Shown one piece after another: positions 716 to 50,329 of a stretch of DNA of 64,000 nt. How positions within the stretch are numbered: position 1 is the first letter of the stretch; every line of letters starts with the position of its first letter. The translations under genes and the position numbers were made by a program. The stretch comes from Enchytraeus crypticus (taxonomy: Eukaryota > Annelida > Clitellata > Enchytraeida > Enchytraeidae): assembly GCA_905160935.1 (NCBI GenBank), contig CAJHZI010000414.1:247001-311000 (forward strand). Reading direction: 5' to 3'. The notes beneath the pieces are model-generated. The model searched no databases and had not been told where the DNA came from. It worked only from the letters and a program-made list of their open reading frames with translations.

Positions 716-856
716 CTTGAGTCCTGTTCTAAGTCCTTCTAGCTCAGTCTGTACGTTCGCCTCTGCCACATCTCGTGCTCTCAGGTTTAGTTCTATCCTC
801 TTCTCTAAAGTCTGCCGATCAGTCTTGAACGCGAGCGAAAGAGAAGAGAATCTCTC
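716..856 (-). CDS. IRAG: IRAG-like gene, exon 11 (diagnostic helical block)
   Basis: Read on the minus strand from 856 to 716, this 141-nt exon is bounded by a T-rich acceptor (...TTGTTATTAG) and a strong donor (CAAG|GTAAAA); both ends are phase 0. It encodes 47 residues: ER, then FSSLSLAFKTDRQTLEKRIE, then a charged helix ending GLRTGLK. The [EK]F-x2-LSLAFKTD-x2-TLEKR pattern is the best conserved segment of IRAG1 (MRVI1) and IRAG2 (LRMP/Jaw1), ER-anchored proteins that bind inositol 1,4,5-trisphosphate receptors; IRAG1 is a cGMP-kinase I partner. A coiled coil and C-terminal membrane anchor normally follow and would lie beyond the left edge. Family assignment is from memory of the motif, not a search. 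The frame also runs into the intron, so the GT donor defines the end. Confidence 0.75.
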
Positions 857-892
857 CTAATAACAATATAAATAAAAATACACATAATAACA

Positions 893-1017
893 ATAACAAC
901 AATTATAGTGCTACAGTCATCAATGACAACATCGACCACTATTGAGACAAAATCAAGCCGGCGAGCAAAAGGAAAGTCTAAAAAAGGTGTAAATTCCAGA
1001 AAATCAGTCTAAAGTAT
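893..1017 (+). repeat. Dispersed repeat E, copy 1
   Basis: CAA-rich lead-in, then a stretch containing AGTGCTACAGTCATCAATGA, CATCGACCACTATTGAG and AAATCAAGCCGGCG. Closely similar blocks occur at 9118-9176 (partial), 21070-21200 and 42850-42905 (partial), all on the same strand. No open reading frame or tRNA-type box is evident. It may be the non-coding part of a larger element. Confidence 0.55.
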
Positions 1018-1220
1018 ATACAAGTATAACTCCCGTACTCACAATGTAATTACTACCAGCCTCTATCTGTCGAACCTTATTAAGCTTAGTTGAAATATGG
1101 CTTAAATTATAAGCTAAAGATTGAATTTATTATACTGTTAATCAATATTATTAATGAAGTCGTAGTAATACGTATTATTGTGGAGGAGATATGACGTAAA
1201 AAAGTTCTGAGATATAATAA

Positions 1221-1395
1221 AGACATGGTTAGAGTGTTCGCCTCGGATGCAAGTGGCCTGGGTTAAAGCCTAGGTCAATCAGAACATGATAGATATCCCC
1301 GTGGGCCCATGGAAGGTTAATCATGTATCGTTGCTTGCTGCTAGTTAAACAAGCATGTAAGTGCTTTCTGACCCAGTACATTGTTAGTTATTTTA
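1221..1395 (+). repeat. Possible tRNA-derived SINE, third family
   Basis: GACATGGTTAGAGTGTTCGCC resembles a tRNA A-box region, and CTGGGTTAAAGCCTAGG about 30 bases later resembles a degenerate B-box. A GC-richer body (CCCGTGGGCCCATGG) follows. Only one copy is visible in the window, so the SINE assignment rests on the box-like spacing alone. The bases from 1396 to 1800 show nothing I can name apart from a short stretch resembling a SINE family 1 tail near 1570. Confidence 0.35.
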
Positions 1396-1802
1396 TGATA
1401 ATGTTATCTGAAGGAGTGATTGACCGAGAATATAGCGCAGCTGTAACTATAGCATCATAAAACTGTGTTACTGTTCATTAATTCAACACTACTTGAAAAT
1501 TAGACTACCGAGTTTGACAATATTCCCAAATTGAAGCAACTCGAGATTTGCATTTGCCTTAACAAAAGCTCAGTTTAACGTCGGTGACAGCTTCACAAGG
1601 ATGCCACTAAAAGCGATCCAATTGGATTTCGTTCACACGACCGGCTACTTTTCAGGTAAATTATATAGATACTCAGCCACTAAAATCGGTACAGAATGGA
1701 AAAGGTCAGTATTGATGATTCAATTTCTAAGGTGGTAAACTTATACAGTAAATTACTACACACTGCTTACAATCACAACTAACAAACTTTAATCGTAGTC
1801 TA

Positions 1803-47220: not shown

Positions 47221-47344
47221 AATAAATAAAAAATTAAACAATTAAAATATAAAAGTAAAAAATAAATAATAATAATAATAAACAAATAATAATAATAATA
47301 ATAATAATAATTATTATTATTATTATTATTATTATTATTATTAT
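47221..47344. repeat. (TAA)n/(TTA)n microsatellite at the retrotransposon 5' junction
   Basis: AATAAT array switching to ATTATT at about 47310, directly adjoining the first coding base of the retrotransposon. The switch of strand motif suggests the insertion point or later rearrangement. Confidence 0.9.
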
Positions 47345-49466
47345 CGTAGCTTTCCAGCAGGCTCAGCCGGCGGTCCTGATGGCCTGCGCCCTCAGCATCT
47401 TCTGGAGCTTGTGCCTTGTAGAGAGTCGGCTGGGACGTTTTTGACCGCTCTGACTTCTTTCGTGAATCTCCTGCTTAGAGGTGTTTGCCCCCCTGAGGTC
47501 CAACCGGTGCTGTTTGGCGGTAAACTCTTTGCACTCAATAAGAAATCTGGCGGCATTCGCCCCATTGCAGTGGGCTACACTTGGCGTCGTTTAGCCGCTA
47601 AATGCGCAAATCGCTATGCAGTGTCTGCTCTCAGCGATTACTTGAGCCCAATTCAACTTGGAGCTGGTATTCCAGGTGGCTGTGAGGCAGCTGTTCACGC
47701 TACTCGCCGTTTCGCTGAGTCAATGCCAGCTGATCACTTCGTGGTAAAGCTAGACTTCTGTAATGCTTTTAATTGCTTGAGTAGATCACGAATGCTCAGC
47801 GAAATACATCACAGGATACCAGAGCTGTATAGTTTCTGCCATCTAGCTTACTCAAGCCCTTCGTGGTTGAAGTTCGGAGACTGGTGCATTGAGTCACAGG
47901 AAGGAGTCCAACAAGGGGATCCCTTAGGGCCCATGCTGTTTTGCTTGACTATTCACCCTCTCCTTACTTCTCTCTCTAGCGATCTCACGGTGGGATACCT
48001 AGATGACATTACTCTAGGTGGTTGCGAGTCGTCGATTGCAAATGATGTACAGACTATCATCGACAGAGGCCAAGAATTTGGGCTTCAGTTGAATCGTACC
48101 AAGTGCGAAGTCATATCATCAGTTTGCAAATCTCCGGGCAACTCAGTTTTGTCATCCTTTGTGCCAATGGGCCTCTCCCATAGTACTCTACTCGGCGCGC
48201 CACTCTCTGGAGAAGAAGCTACTACCACCGCTTTATCTAGCCGCTTGGAGGATGTCAAACGTACAGCATCGCGCTTGAAGTCGCTAGCCGCTCATGATGC
48301 TTTGACAATCCTTCGCTTTTCATTAAGTGCACCTAAACTTATGCACATTCTGCGCTCTAGTCCGAGTTTCTCTAATCCGCGGCTTTTAGACTACGACGAG
48401 GCTCTTAGGCTATGCTTGTGCGCCGTAATCAACGCAGATTTGTCTGATTTGCAGTGGCAGCAAGCCAGTCTACCGGTGAGCAAGGGTGGTCTTGGAATTC
48501 GTCTTGTTTCCCATATCGCGCCTTCAGCCTTCTTGGCATCAGCGATGGGAACGAGGCAGTTGCAAGACGCCATCCTACATAAGTGCTCCCTTTCTGCCGA
48601 TAGATCCATTGACGTTGCGCTGTCAGTTTGTCCAAAAGCCTCACATCTAGTGCTCCACCTTCTACCTCAGTCAGTAACCAGAAATCATGGGACCGTCCTA
48701 TAGTGGATCGGATTTACAACAGTCTGTTAGAATCCCAATCCAATGCAGTAGCAGAGCACGACTCCTAGCTGTATCAACCAAAAGAAGCAGTGACTGGCTT
48801 CACGCTCTCCCTGTTGCTTCTTGTGGGCTTTTTTTTAGACAATGAGGCGATTCTAGTAGCCGTTAGTTTCCGTTTAGGGGCGAAAACTTGCGAGCCTCAC
48901 ATGTGCCCCTGCGGTCATGAAGTCGACGCTTTAGGTCTCCACGGCCTCTCCTGCAAACGAAGCTCAGGTAGAATGTCTCGCCATCACAATTTAAATGACT
49001 TAATATGGCGAGCACTTTCAAGAGCAGGCATCCCTTCCTCTAAGGAACCAAGTGAGTTGTCCAGATCAGACGGCAAGCGTCCGGACGGCTTGACTTTAGT
49101 GCCCTGGTGCAACGGTAAATGTGCCGTATGGGACGTCACGGTGATTGACACTATGGCAAACTCCTACCTGAATACGACTTCAGTCACAGACGGTGGAGCT
49201 GCTGTTCATGCCGCCTCTAGGAAGTTGGATAAATACCGAGATCTGTCCTCAGGATATGAAGTTGTTCCGGTTGCCATTGAAACCATGGGCCCGATGAATC
49301 CCGAAGGAGTTGACTTTATTAATGGCATAGGCAGACTTATTGCAGAGCAAACCGGCGATAAGCGAGAAACATCTTTTCTTTGGCAAAGGCTTTCCATGAC
49401 TTTGCAAAGATTTCATGCAGTCTGCTTCAACAATTCTTTTAAGCCGATTGATGACCTCGAGTAGCC
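47345..49466 (+). pseudogene. RLE-type non-LTR retrotransposon polyprotein (RT + endonuclease), frameshifted
   Basis: Opens directly after the microsatellite with SFPAGSAGGPDGLRPQHL, the usual start of this RT group, so it is 5' truncated at the RT domain. RT motifs follow in order: LNKKSGGIRPIAVG, KLDFCNAFN (catalytic Asp), EGVQQGDPLGPMLF, YLDD at 47996-48007, LNRTKCEVI. The C-terminal part has a CxC/H/C zinc-type motif (CPCG...LHGLSC) and KRPD at 49075-49086 with a downstream Asp at 49132, the restriction-like endonuclease pattern of R2/R4/NeSL/HERO elements. Frame changes near 48680, 48755 and at the T run 48829-48836, plus stops, inactivate it. Stop at 49462-49464. Closest clade is probably R4/Dong-like, an inference from target preference. 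Confidence 0.9.
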
Positions 49467-49580
49467 GGGCGGCGATTCAGCACGTATTGCTTGAATCGTT
49501 TTTATCAAACCCCAGGTTCTTTACACCGGGGTAAAAAATAGAATAATAATAATAATAATAACAAAAATACTAATACTACT
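49412..49580 (+). mobile_element. Retrotransposon 3' UTR and TAA tail
   Basis: After the stop comes CCGGGCGGCGATTCAGCACG, then CCCAGGTTCTTTACACCGGGG, which can pair CCCAGG/CCGGGG-type arms, then AAAAAATAG and an AATAAT/ACT array. The 3' UTR is only about 75 bases. The small GC-rich hairpin is a plausible recognition site for the element's own reverse transcriptase. Confidence 0.7.
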
Positions 49581-50231
49581 ACTACTAATAATAATAATGT
49601 CATTTTCCTCGGCGCATTCATTTATATAGCATCACAAGAAGCGAATGATTTTCTTTAAATGCTTCTTTTACACTTCAACTTTAATAAAAAAAGTTTTCTT
49701 TTACCTCTTTGTGTCATTTAAATGTTTACAAATAATGATAATGCTATTAATAACAATAACAATAAGAAAAATCGTATTACTAACATCACGACGGTATCTA
49801 TAAACCCAACTGTATCAACAAATACTATTCTAATCACTTCATAAAAGATTCGGATGAGTCGACCTGACAACCTTACAATGGGCTTCAATGACTGCGCGAC
49901 AATAGGCAACATCCTCCTATTTCAATTCCAAAAAATTTGCTTTCAAATTTACTCATAATTTAAAATATTTAACAATGAATAAACAAAGGTAGGACACCGT
50001 TAAAATGGACAAGTCCGTTTATTGGTTTTGTATGATATGACAGGAGTGTTCTTTAGCAATTTAGTCGTCGAATTATTCTAATGAAATGATCTATAGCCAA
50101 CGGTAACGCAATTACCAAATCAACAGAAGATTTACTTCTGCCATAGAACAGCTTACAAAAATTGAGCTGTCTGCTCTGCCATGTATTAATATTACTATTC
50201 TATTTTTAAGTGTACTGCTGCAATGCAATAC
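49581..50231. other. Intron 1 near exon 1, nothing recognised
   Basis: AT-rich, no feature supported. Confidence 0.45.
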
Positions 50232-50329
50232 CTGATTCGTAACATTGGCTCCATCTTGAGATTGATTGTGAATTAACTGACGAGATCGGCTGCGACTAAT
50301 GTTTCCGTCAACATCGACGCATGTGCCCC
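50232..50329 (-). CDS. IRAG: IRAG-like gene, exon 1 of the supported model
   Basis: Very good acceptor (TGTTTATTTCTGTTTCAG|GGGGC) and donor (AATCAG|GTATTG) on the minus strand. Two bases complete a codon from an upstream exon, then GTCVDVDGNISRSRSRQLIH and NQSQDGANVTNQ read to a phase-0 end that fits exon 2. Polar, two Asn-x-Ser/Thr sites, one Cys. An apparent Met upstream in the same frame (MRLFLGLTVFCVF...) lies in the intron's pyrimidine tract and should not be taken for a signal peptide. The assignment to this gene rests on strand, splice quality and phase. Confidence 0.6.

Follow-up and report, generated by a model that had tools for sequence, protein, structure and literature searches.

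Results

A minus-strand IRAG/MRVI1-like gene in Enchytraeus crypticus

We analysed a 64,000-nucleotide stretch of the genome of the annelid Enchytraeus crypticus (GCA_905160935.1, contig CAJHZI010000414.1; hereafter the window), which corresponds to C321:247001-311000 in the 524 Mb assembly, and in particular a minus-strand gene resembling those for the mammalian inositol trisphosphate (IP3) receptor partners IRAG1 (MRVI1) and IRAG2 (LRMP, Jaw1). An earlier reading of the same letters, the original prediction, had proposed an eleven-exon gene of this kind running from 50329 to 716. The gene is very probably an annelid member of the IRAG/MRVI1 (PF05781) family that lies partly inside the window. 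As judged from the sequence, family membership, a chain of exons in phase from 23556 to a stop codon left of the window, and a membrane anchor can be regarded as established.

The minus strand was scanned by splice-site and codon scoring in which phase coupling between exons was not imposed. The splice-site matrices were general consensus values untrained on this animal, and since the codon model had the strong exons themselves as its training set, a leave-one-out test was added. Below 23.6 kb, the five top non-overlapping exons were 23556-22230, 20942-20622, 19793-19439, 18792-18521 and 856-716, which together with a micro-exon form a series of six joining in phase (1/2, 2/2, 2/0, 0/2, 2/0 and 0/0 from 23556-22230 through 856-716):

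22230..23556, minus strand: exon 6, 1327 nt, phase 1 in and 2 out, 442 aa, low-complexity N-terminal region
20622..20942, minus strand: exon 7, 321 nt, phase 2/2, holds RRRCLS; top-scoring when left out of training and in phase with its neighbours
19439..19793, minus strand: exon 8, 355 nt, phase 2/0, holds RRKS; top-scoring when left out and in phase
18521..18792, minus strand: exon 9, 272 nt, phase 0/2; the MRVI1 match starts in its last ~27 aa
3365..3395, minus strand: exon 10, candidate micro-exon, 31 nt, phase 2/0, codes (S)KDDHSVQESE
716..856, minus strand: exon 11, 141 nt, phase 0/0, codes 47 aa with the first helix of the coiled coil in MRVI1/IRAG

Exon 6 is bounded by an acceptor of 9.8 bits and a donor of 10.7 bits and contains a single open frame, with 15-48 stops in the other five. 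After leave-one-out training the boundaries of all five larger exons still ranked first, the rival donor of exon 11 at position 710 trailing by only 0.6 bits. The junction phases of the first four core exons (23556 to 18521) agree among themselves. The longest intron of the gene measures 15 kb.

The gap between 18521 and 856 requires an exon of phase 2/0. Among eight phase-compatible candidates scoring above 8, the micro-exon 3395-3365 was the best, with a splice plus coding score of 24.1 that none of 30 shuffled introns reached (maximum 22.3; two reached 22). The MRVI1 score of the join amounted to 43.1 bits with this micro-exon, 35.9-41.5 bits with the other seven candidates and 41.2 bits with one scrambled copy of it. 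Because the gain over the scrambled copy is only 2 bits, the micro-exon is supported, not proved. A chain search across 18521-857 yielded a best chain of 22 exons, 21 of them outside the model, and 6 of 60 shuffles reached its score.

Continuation left of the window

The left flank was likewise scanned for exons, and seven further minus-strand exons were found:

C321:244554-244423, minus strand: exon 12, phase 0/0
C321:243621-243524, minus strand: exon 13, phase 0/2, overlaps an MRVI1 match of the genome scan
C321:242912-242846, minus strand: exon 14, phase 2/0
C321:240554-240459, minus strand: exon 15, phase 0/0
C321:239231-239119, minus strand: exon 16, phase 0/2
C321:238422-238078, minus strand: exon 17, phase 2/2
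C321:237221-236969, minus strand: exon 18 (last), phase 2 to the TGA stop, holds the predicted transmembrane anchor

These exons bring an anchor and a stop, so that the gene does not end with 716-856; the leftward extension that had been proposed indeed delivered further coiled-coil exons as well as a membrane anchor at the C-terminus. All 13 located exons join without a phase conflict and give 3551 nt, which code for 1182 residues (130.8 kDa) and end in TGA. The exons that link coiled coil and stem (14-16, 242912 to 239119) had a joint score of 28.0, reached by none of 100 shuffles (maximum 23.4). The last exon contains a 19-residue stretch, GLLLFALVFIAIVCLMLAI, with a mean hydropathy of 3.14, the best window starting before residue 1121 having 0.44; a tail of 17 residues, RFSRFGAFVLFLFSIGR, follows, and then the stop. 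The protein is thus predicted to carry a single C-terminal transmembrane anchor and a short tail on the luminal side.

The coiled coil is formed by exons 11-13 or 11-14 and comprises about 123-146 residues; residues 856-914 within it are the longest stretch free of Pro and Gly, periodicity itself being unscored. The N-terminal and stem regions each consist to 45% of P, S, T, N, Q and G, and a charge-hydropathy index places both on the disordered side. A disordered middle, as previously suggested, would fit as judged by composition, but the index also marks the coiled coil as disordered, marginally. The basophilic kinase-type sites RRKS and RRRCLS, which had been reported, are present in exons 8 and 7, and the stem adds RRLS at 918, RRST at 927 and RRIS at 1108. 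A shorter 3′-end is possible, in which the exon from C321:238422 would read into a stop at 238065 and yield an isoform devoid of the anchor. In addition, the phases would allow exon 13 to be spliced directly to exon 17, leaving out exons 14-16.

Evidence for the MRVI1 family

The assignment had been tied to the block FSSLSLAFKTD...TLEKRIEL, and a profile search with the 716-856 translation had been named as the test that could overturn it. Exon 856-716 does contain this block, and on its own it matched Pfam MRVI1 (cut-off 27 bits, profile length 533) with 38.3 bits and an E-value of 8.9e-10, in line with the IRAG/LRMP identity. In three controls, two shuffles of the block were without any match and the reversed block matched only Mto2_bdg (E 0.048). 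Exons 9 and 11 joined by an X spacer scored 39.9 bits, the match reaching back to profile position 160; when exon 9 was scrambled in the join (38.3-40.7 bits), the match no longer entered it in five of five cases. Exon 9 by itself had no Pfam match.

Joining exons 9-18, and hence adding those left of base 1, brought the MRVI1 score of the translation to 135.3 bits (E 3.7e-39, profile 161-316 of 533). Exons 11-13 scored 131.3 bits, and exons 12-13 alone, which lie outside the window, 79.2 bits. For the exons of the gene, no family other than MRVI1 exceeded its Pfam cut-off. A scan of the 524 Mb assembly, with three candidates scored, returned two MRVI1 matches of 34.8 and 33.5 bits, both in this gene: one is the 716-856 exon, the other C321:243529-243627, which lies on the same strand and covers profile 280-312; among the matches listed for these three candidates there was no other. 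AlphaFold2, run on the single sequence, modelled exon 11 as one continuous helix (predicted local distance difference test, pLDDT, 91.5); a model of the isolated exon 9 had a poor mean pLDDT of 55.7 and was discarded. No match was obtained in sequence searches of the PDB, no relative of the exon 9 frame among viral contigs, and no match of the exon 6 frame in a plasmid collection.

The upstream half

The original prediction placed five more exons between 50329 and 23556. The coordinates of its exons 2 to 5 were not given; exons 2 and 5 are likely 38326-38219 and 25167-25053. The candidates and the neighbouring gene are as follows:

50232..50329, minus strand: candidate exon 1, phase 1/0, unverified; score 22.8, 8 of 20 shuffles as good
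38219..38326, minus strand: candidate exon 2, phase 0/0, unverified; score 25.7, reached by 1 of 20 shuffles
25053..25167, minus strand: candidate exon 5, phase 0/1, weakly supported; score 21.0, reached by 12 of 20 shuffles
62209..62861, minus strand: apparent last exon of an upstream neighbour, outside the gene; open frame with acceptor and stop at 62209, AATAAA ~110 nt on

Because this same-strand frame ends at 62209 and is followed by AATAAA, the gene should not reach past about 62.1 kb. Position 50329 marks the start of a candidate bounded by an acceptor, and 50329-50232 is therefore not an initial exon. No second copy of 50329-50232 or 38326-38219 was found in the 524 Mb genome, so that both may be real exons. 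The translation of 38219..38326 looks coiled-coil-like by eye, and neither it nor that of 25053..25167 has a Pfam match.

In the region 62100-23570, non-overlapping candidates scoring at least 20 numbered eight on the minus and eight on the plus strand, the mean of 20 shuffles being 1.2; at a score of at least 15, there were 14 and 22, respectively, and 8.15 in shuffles. The best phase-matched minus-strand chain in 62100-23557 had 25 exons and a score of 117.7, which none of 20 shuffles reached (maximum 75.9). On the plus strand of the same region, the best chains comprised 28-30 exons and scored 192.6-193.9. We therefore rejected phase matching as proof of the N-terminal part, as plus-strand chains outscore minus-strand chains. 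The real sequence probably beats its shuffles owing to repeats and mobile elements. The upstream candidates are not distinguishable from background in 62100-23570. Taken together, the six exons from 23556 to 716 stand as proposed and the five upstream of them are unverified; likewise, the agreement of phases claimed for all junctions holds for the core exons and carries no weight upstream. A coiled-coil N-terminus, which had been part of the proposal, is not established either.

Repeat arrays directly beside candidate exons are one reason why upstream exon calls are unsafe. An ACATT pentamer array of 127 copies (24415-25052) abuts the candidate 25053..25167, and a minisatellite array with a unit of ~20 bp (62879-63382) adjoins the exon 62209-62861. 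The frame of the latter, on the minus strand, has no Pfam match and contains PPPY and PPAY motifs, possible WW-domain ligands. A reverse-transcriptase frame on the plus strand (47282-49464; Pfam RVT_1, E 6.2e-16), with a second frame downstream, represents a LINE-type (long interspersed) element within the presumed 5′-part of the gene. At 41451-42392, a 473-bp unit occurs twice head-to-tail with a 100% match, either a recent tandem duplication or an assembly artefact.

Comparison with known relatives

The cited passages of PMC10298018, PMC11037915, PMC7804115 and PMC13131473 concern mammalian proteins, and the order of parts they give for IRAG1, LRMP and Jaw1 is that of the annelid gene. With IRAG1 (MRVI1) the annelid protein shares the MRVI1 coiled coil, a long N-terminal region, the stem and the single C-terminal membrane anchor. 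It also has RRLS and RRST just past the coiled coil, reminiscent of the cyclic GMP (cGMP)-dependent kinase (PKG) site that PMC10298018 places at the C-terminal end of the IRAG1 coiled coil. It differs from IRAG1 in length, with at least 1182 aa versus 899 for the IRAG described in PMC13131473.

The order of parts is likewise that of IRAG2 (LRMP, Jaw1), and the coiled coil of about 123-146 residues compares with 140 residues (194-333) reported for Jaw1 in PMC7804115. In contrast to IRAG2, the annelid N-terminal region is much longer and the tail of 17 residues is without a KASH-like end, compared with 39 luminal residues according to the passage cited from PMC10298018. In mammals, HCN4 is a further target of LRMP and IRAG, which act on it with their N-termini (PMC11037915 and PMC13131473); no family profile recognised the corresponding N-terminal part of the annelid protein.

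KASH5 is a coiled-coil, tail-anchored protein as well. A coiled coil and a C-terminal anchor are common to both, and the annelid exons match only MRVI1 in Pfam.

Putative mechanism and candidate partners

By homology, the gene product would be a calcium-signalling partner of the IP3 receptor, as had been suggested. A large cytoplasmic protein of at least 1182 aa and 131 kDa would be tethered to the endoplasmic reticulum (ER) by one C-terminal transmembrane helix, and would most likely oligomerise and dock on the IP3 receptor via the coiled coil that starts in exon 856-716. A basophilic kinase such as PKG may then tune calcium release by phosphorylating the RRxS sites of the protein. ER location, receptor binding and kinase control are all transferred here from the mammalian relatives. 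In mammals, according to PMC10298018, both IRAG1 and IRAG2 need their coiled coil to bind the IP3 receptor, an IRAG1 devoid of the exon for the N-terminal part of the coiled coil is 5 kDa smaller and no longer binds the receptor, and IRAG1 is an ER-anchored PKG substrate whose coiled coil has a site at either end. Exon 856-716, which holds the corresponding position in the annelid gene, is in-frame (0/0) and codes for 5.4 kDa.

As to candidate partners, four genome matches to Ins145_P3_rec, spread over two contigs, could represent either IP3 receptors or ryanodine receptors. PKG leucine-zipper matches were three, one over the cut-off, which we take to be followed by a likely autoinhibitory stretch, and two below. 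Ion_trans_N, the N-terminal domain of HCN channels, had eight profile matches, all over the cut-off, on contigs C360, C462, C192, C122, C564, C345, C201 and C385. Mammals possess four HCN genes.

Discussion

Several observations weigh against an annelid IRAG gene of the extent and function described above. The gene model was built from genomic sequence alone, and MRVI1 positions 1-160 and 317-533, also a difference from IRAG1, are without a match in the joined protein. The located part is free of methionine up to residue 439, so that coding exons upstream of 23556 must exist; by sequence, the gene would have at least 14 coding exons, 13 of them located, in place of the eleven originally counted. 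Addition of exons 14-15 to exons 11-13 did not raise the MRVI1 score (130.8 versus 131.3 bits), and exon 14 has a weak donor (2.5) and gains 1.4 bits over an X spacer. With respect to function, RRxS/T occurs four times in the whole protein versus 1.8 expected (P 0.10), which is not clearly enriched; in the stem it occurs three times versus 0.43 expected (P 0.007), a region picked after seeing the sites. Moreover, among the four Ins145_P3_rec matches there are two with an internal stop codon, as may occur where a six-frame match extends into an intron.

The lack of any Pfam match for exons 6-9 joined without exon 11 also favours a reading in which two genes have been run together, the low-complexity exons 23556-19439 belonging to an unrelated upstream gene and the IRAG-like gene beginning only at 18792 and continuing leftwards; besides, the linking exons could be proved only by complementary DNA. 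We nevertheless consider this unlikely, given that phase is kept at all three junctions between 22230 and 18792, their boundaries having ranked first without phase coupling, which would be a 1 in 27 coincidence, that the introns between these exons are short (646-1287 nt), and that a disordered N-terminal region is usual in the family, as indicated in PMC7804115. Equally doubtful, if not slightly more so, is a nuclear-envelope KASH protein like Jaw1/LRMP, which would link nucleus and cytoskeleton instead of regulating calcium. The order of parts would suit it, and the cited part of PMC10827754 reports that the Jaw1/LRMP KASH domain (KASH6) binds SUN1. However, the 17-residue tail contains neither a proline nor a KASH-like end, compared with the 39 luminal residues of IRAG2 (PMC10298018). 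As judged by the KASH end motif, the luminal peptide does not resemble a SUN-binding one of the KASH6 type.

That the locus harbours a decayed, unexpressed IRAG copy appears very improbable. The purely genomic evidence, the 15-kb intron and the mobile-element frame elsewhere in the window would be compatible with a pseudogene, yet every located exon is open in frame with splice sites accepted by the scan, an argument that is weaker for the small exons because they were picked for being open. Furthermore, the pseudogene would have to be a decayed sole copy, no other MRVI1 match being listed, whose 3.5 kb of joined coding sequence nevertheless show no break in frame. We favour an annelid member of the IRAG/MRVI1 family.

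Genomic context and host

Within the window, there was no Rfam match at gathering thresholds, and ARAGORN found no tRNA genes. Downstream of the gene lies a same-strand neighbour (C321:216391-208644, minus strand), whose candidate exons are very Ser/Thr-rich and mucin-like and include a transmembrane-like stretch, TTTHIIAIALGAAGLLLLLLGLSCCCWYCCC.

The host had been taken for an invertebrate, and the mitochondrial code and gene order agree with this. The mitochondrial contig of 15,205 bases carries a cox1 frame with 12 in-frame TGA that reads well in the invertebrate code; AGA and AGG presumably stand for serine in it, judging from conserved positions. Apart from cox1 and the large ribosomal RNA (rRNA), mitochondrial genes were named by eye from their translations. 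All recognised genes lie on one strand, the open frames being read by eye, and their order as a circle is cox1, cox2, cox3, nad6, cob, atp6, nad5, nad4L, nad4, large rRNA, nad1, nad3 and nad2; neither atp8 nor the small rRNA could be identified. This order shows the four features by which PMC2639372 sets annelids apart from the bilaterian ground pattern, and so marks the animal as very probably an annelid in the wide sense. Five cox1 fragments lie outside the mitochondrial contig (C361, C424, C796, C373 and C166), four of them over the cut-off; they carry TGA and mostly also TAA or TAG, and are probably nuclear copies of mitochondrial DNA.

Significance

Literature searches over titles and abstract openings surfaced no paper on an invertebrate IRAG, which is weak evidence of absence, as many of the matches were without IRAG names. 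We presume that the MRVI1 family is annotated in other invertebrates too, and therefore do not claim its presence in an annelid as new. The gene adds a new member to a family already known, a result that is sound and not startling. Methodically, splice scoring combined with a family profile can recover a gene over tens of kilobases, including a 31-nt exon and a 15-kb intron, and the N-terminal half shows where this approach loses reliability.

An IRAG with RRxS sites beside its coiled coil, a zipper-bearing PKG and an IP3 receptor are the parts of a brake on IP3-receptor calcium release driven by nitric oxide and PKG. We would tentatively suggest that this brake was complete in the common ancestor of annelids and vertebrates, and that an apparently single annelid IRAG gene may combine the functions of IRAG1 and IRAG2. 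With an apparently single annelid gene of the family layout, one can ask which role was ancestral, that of an IP3-receptor brake, an HCN-channel regulator or a nuclear anchor.

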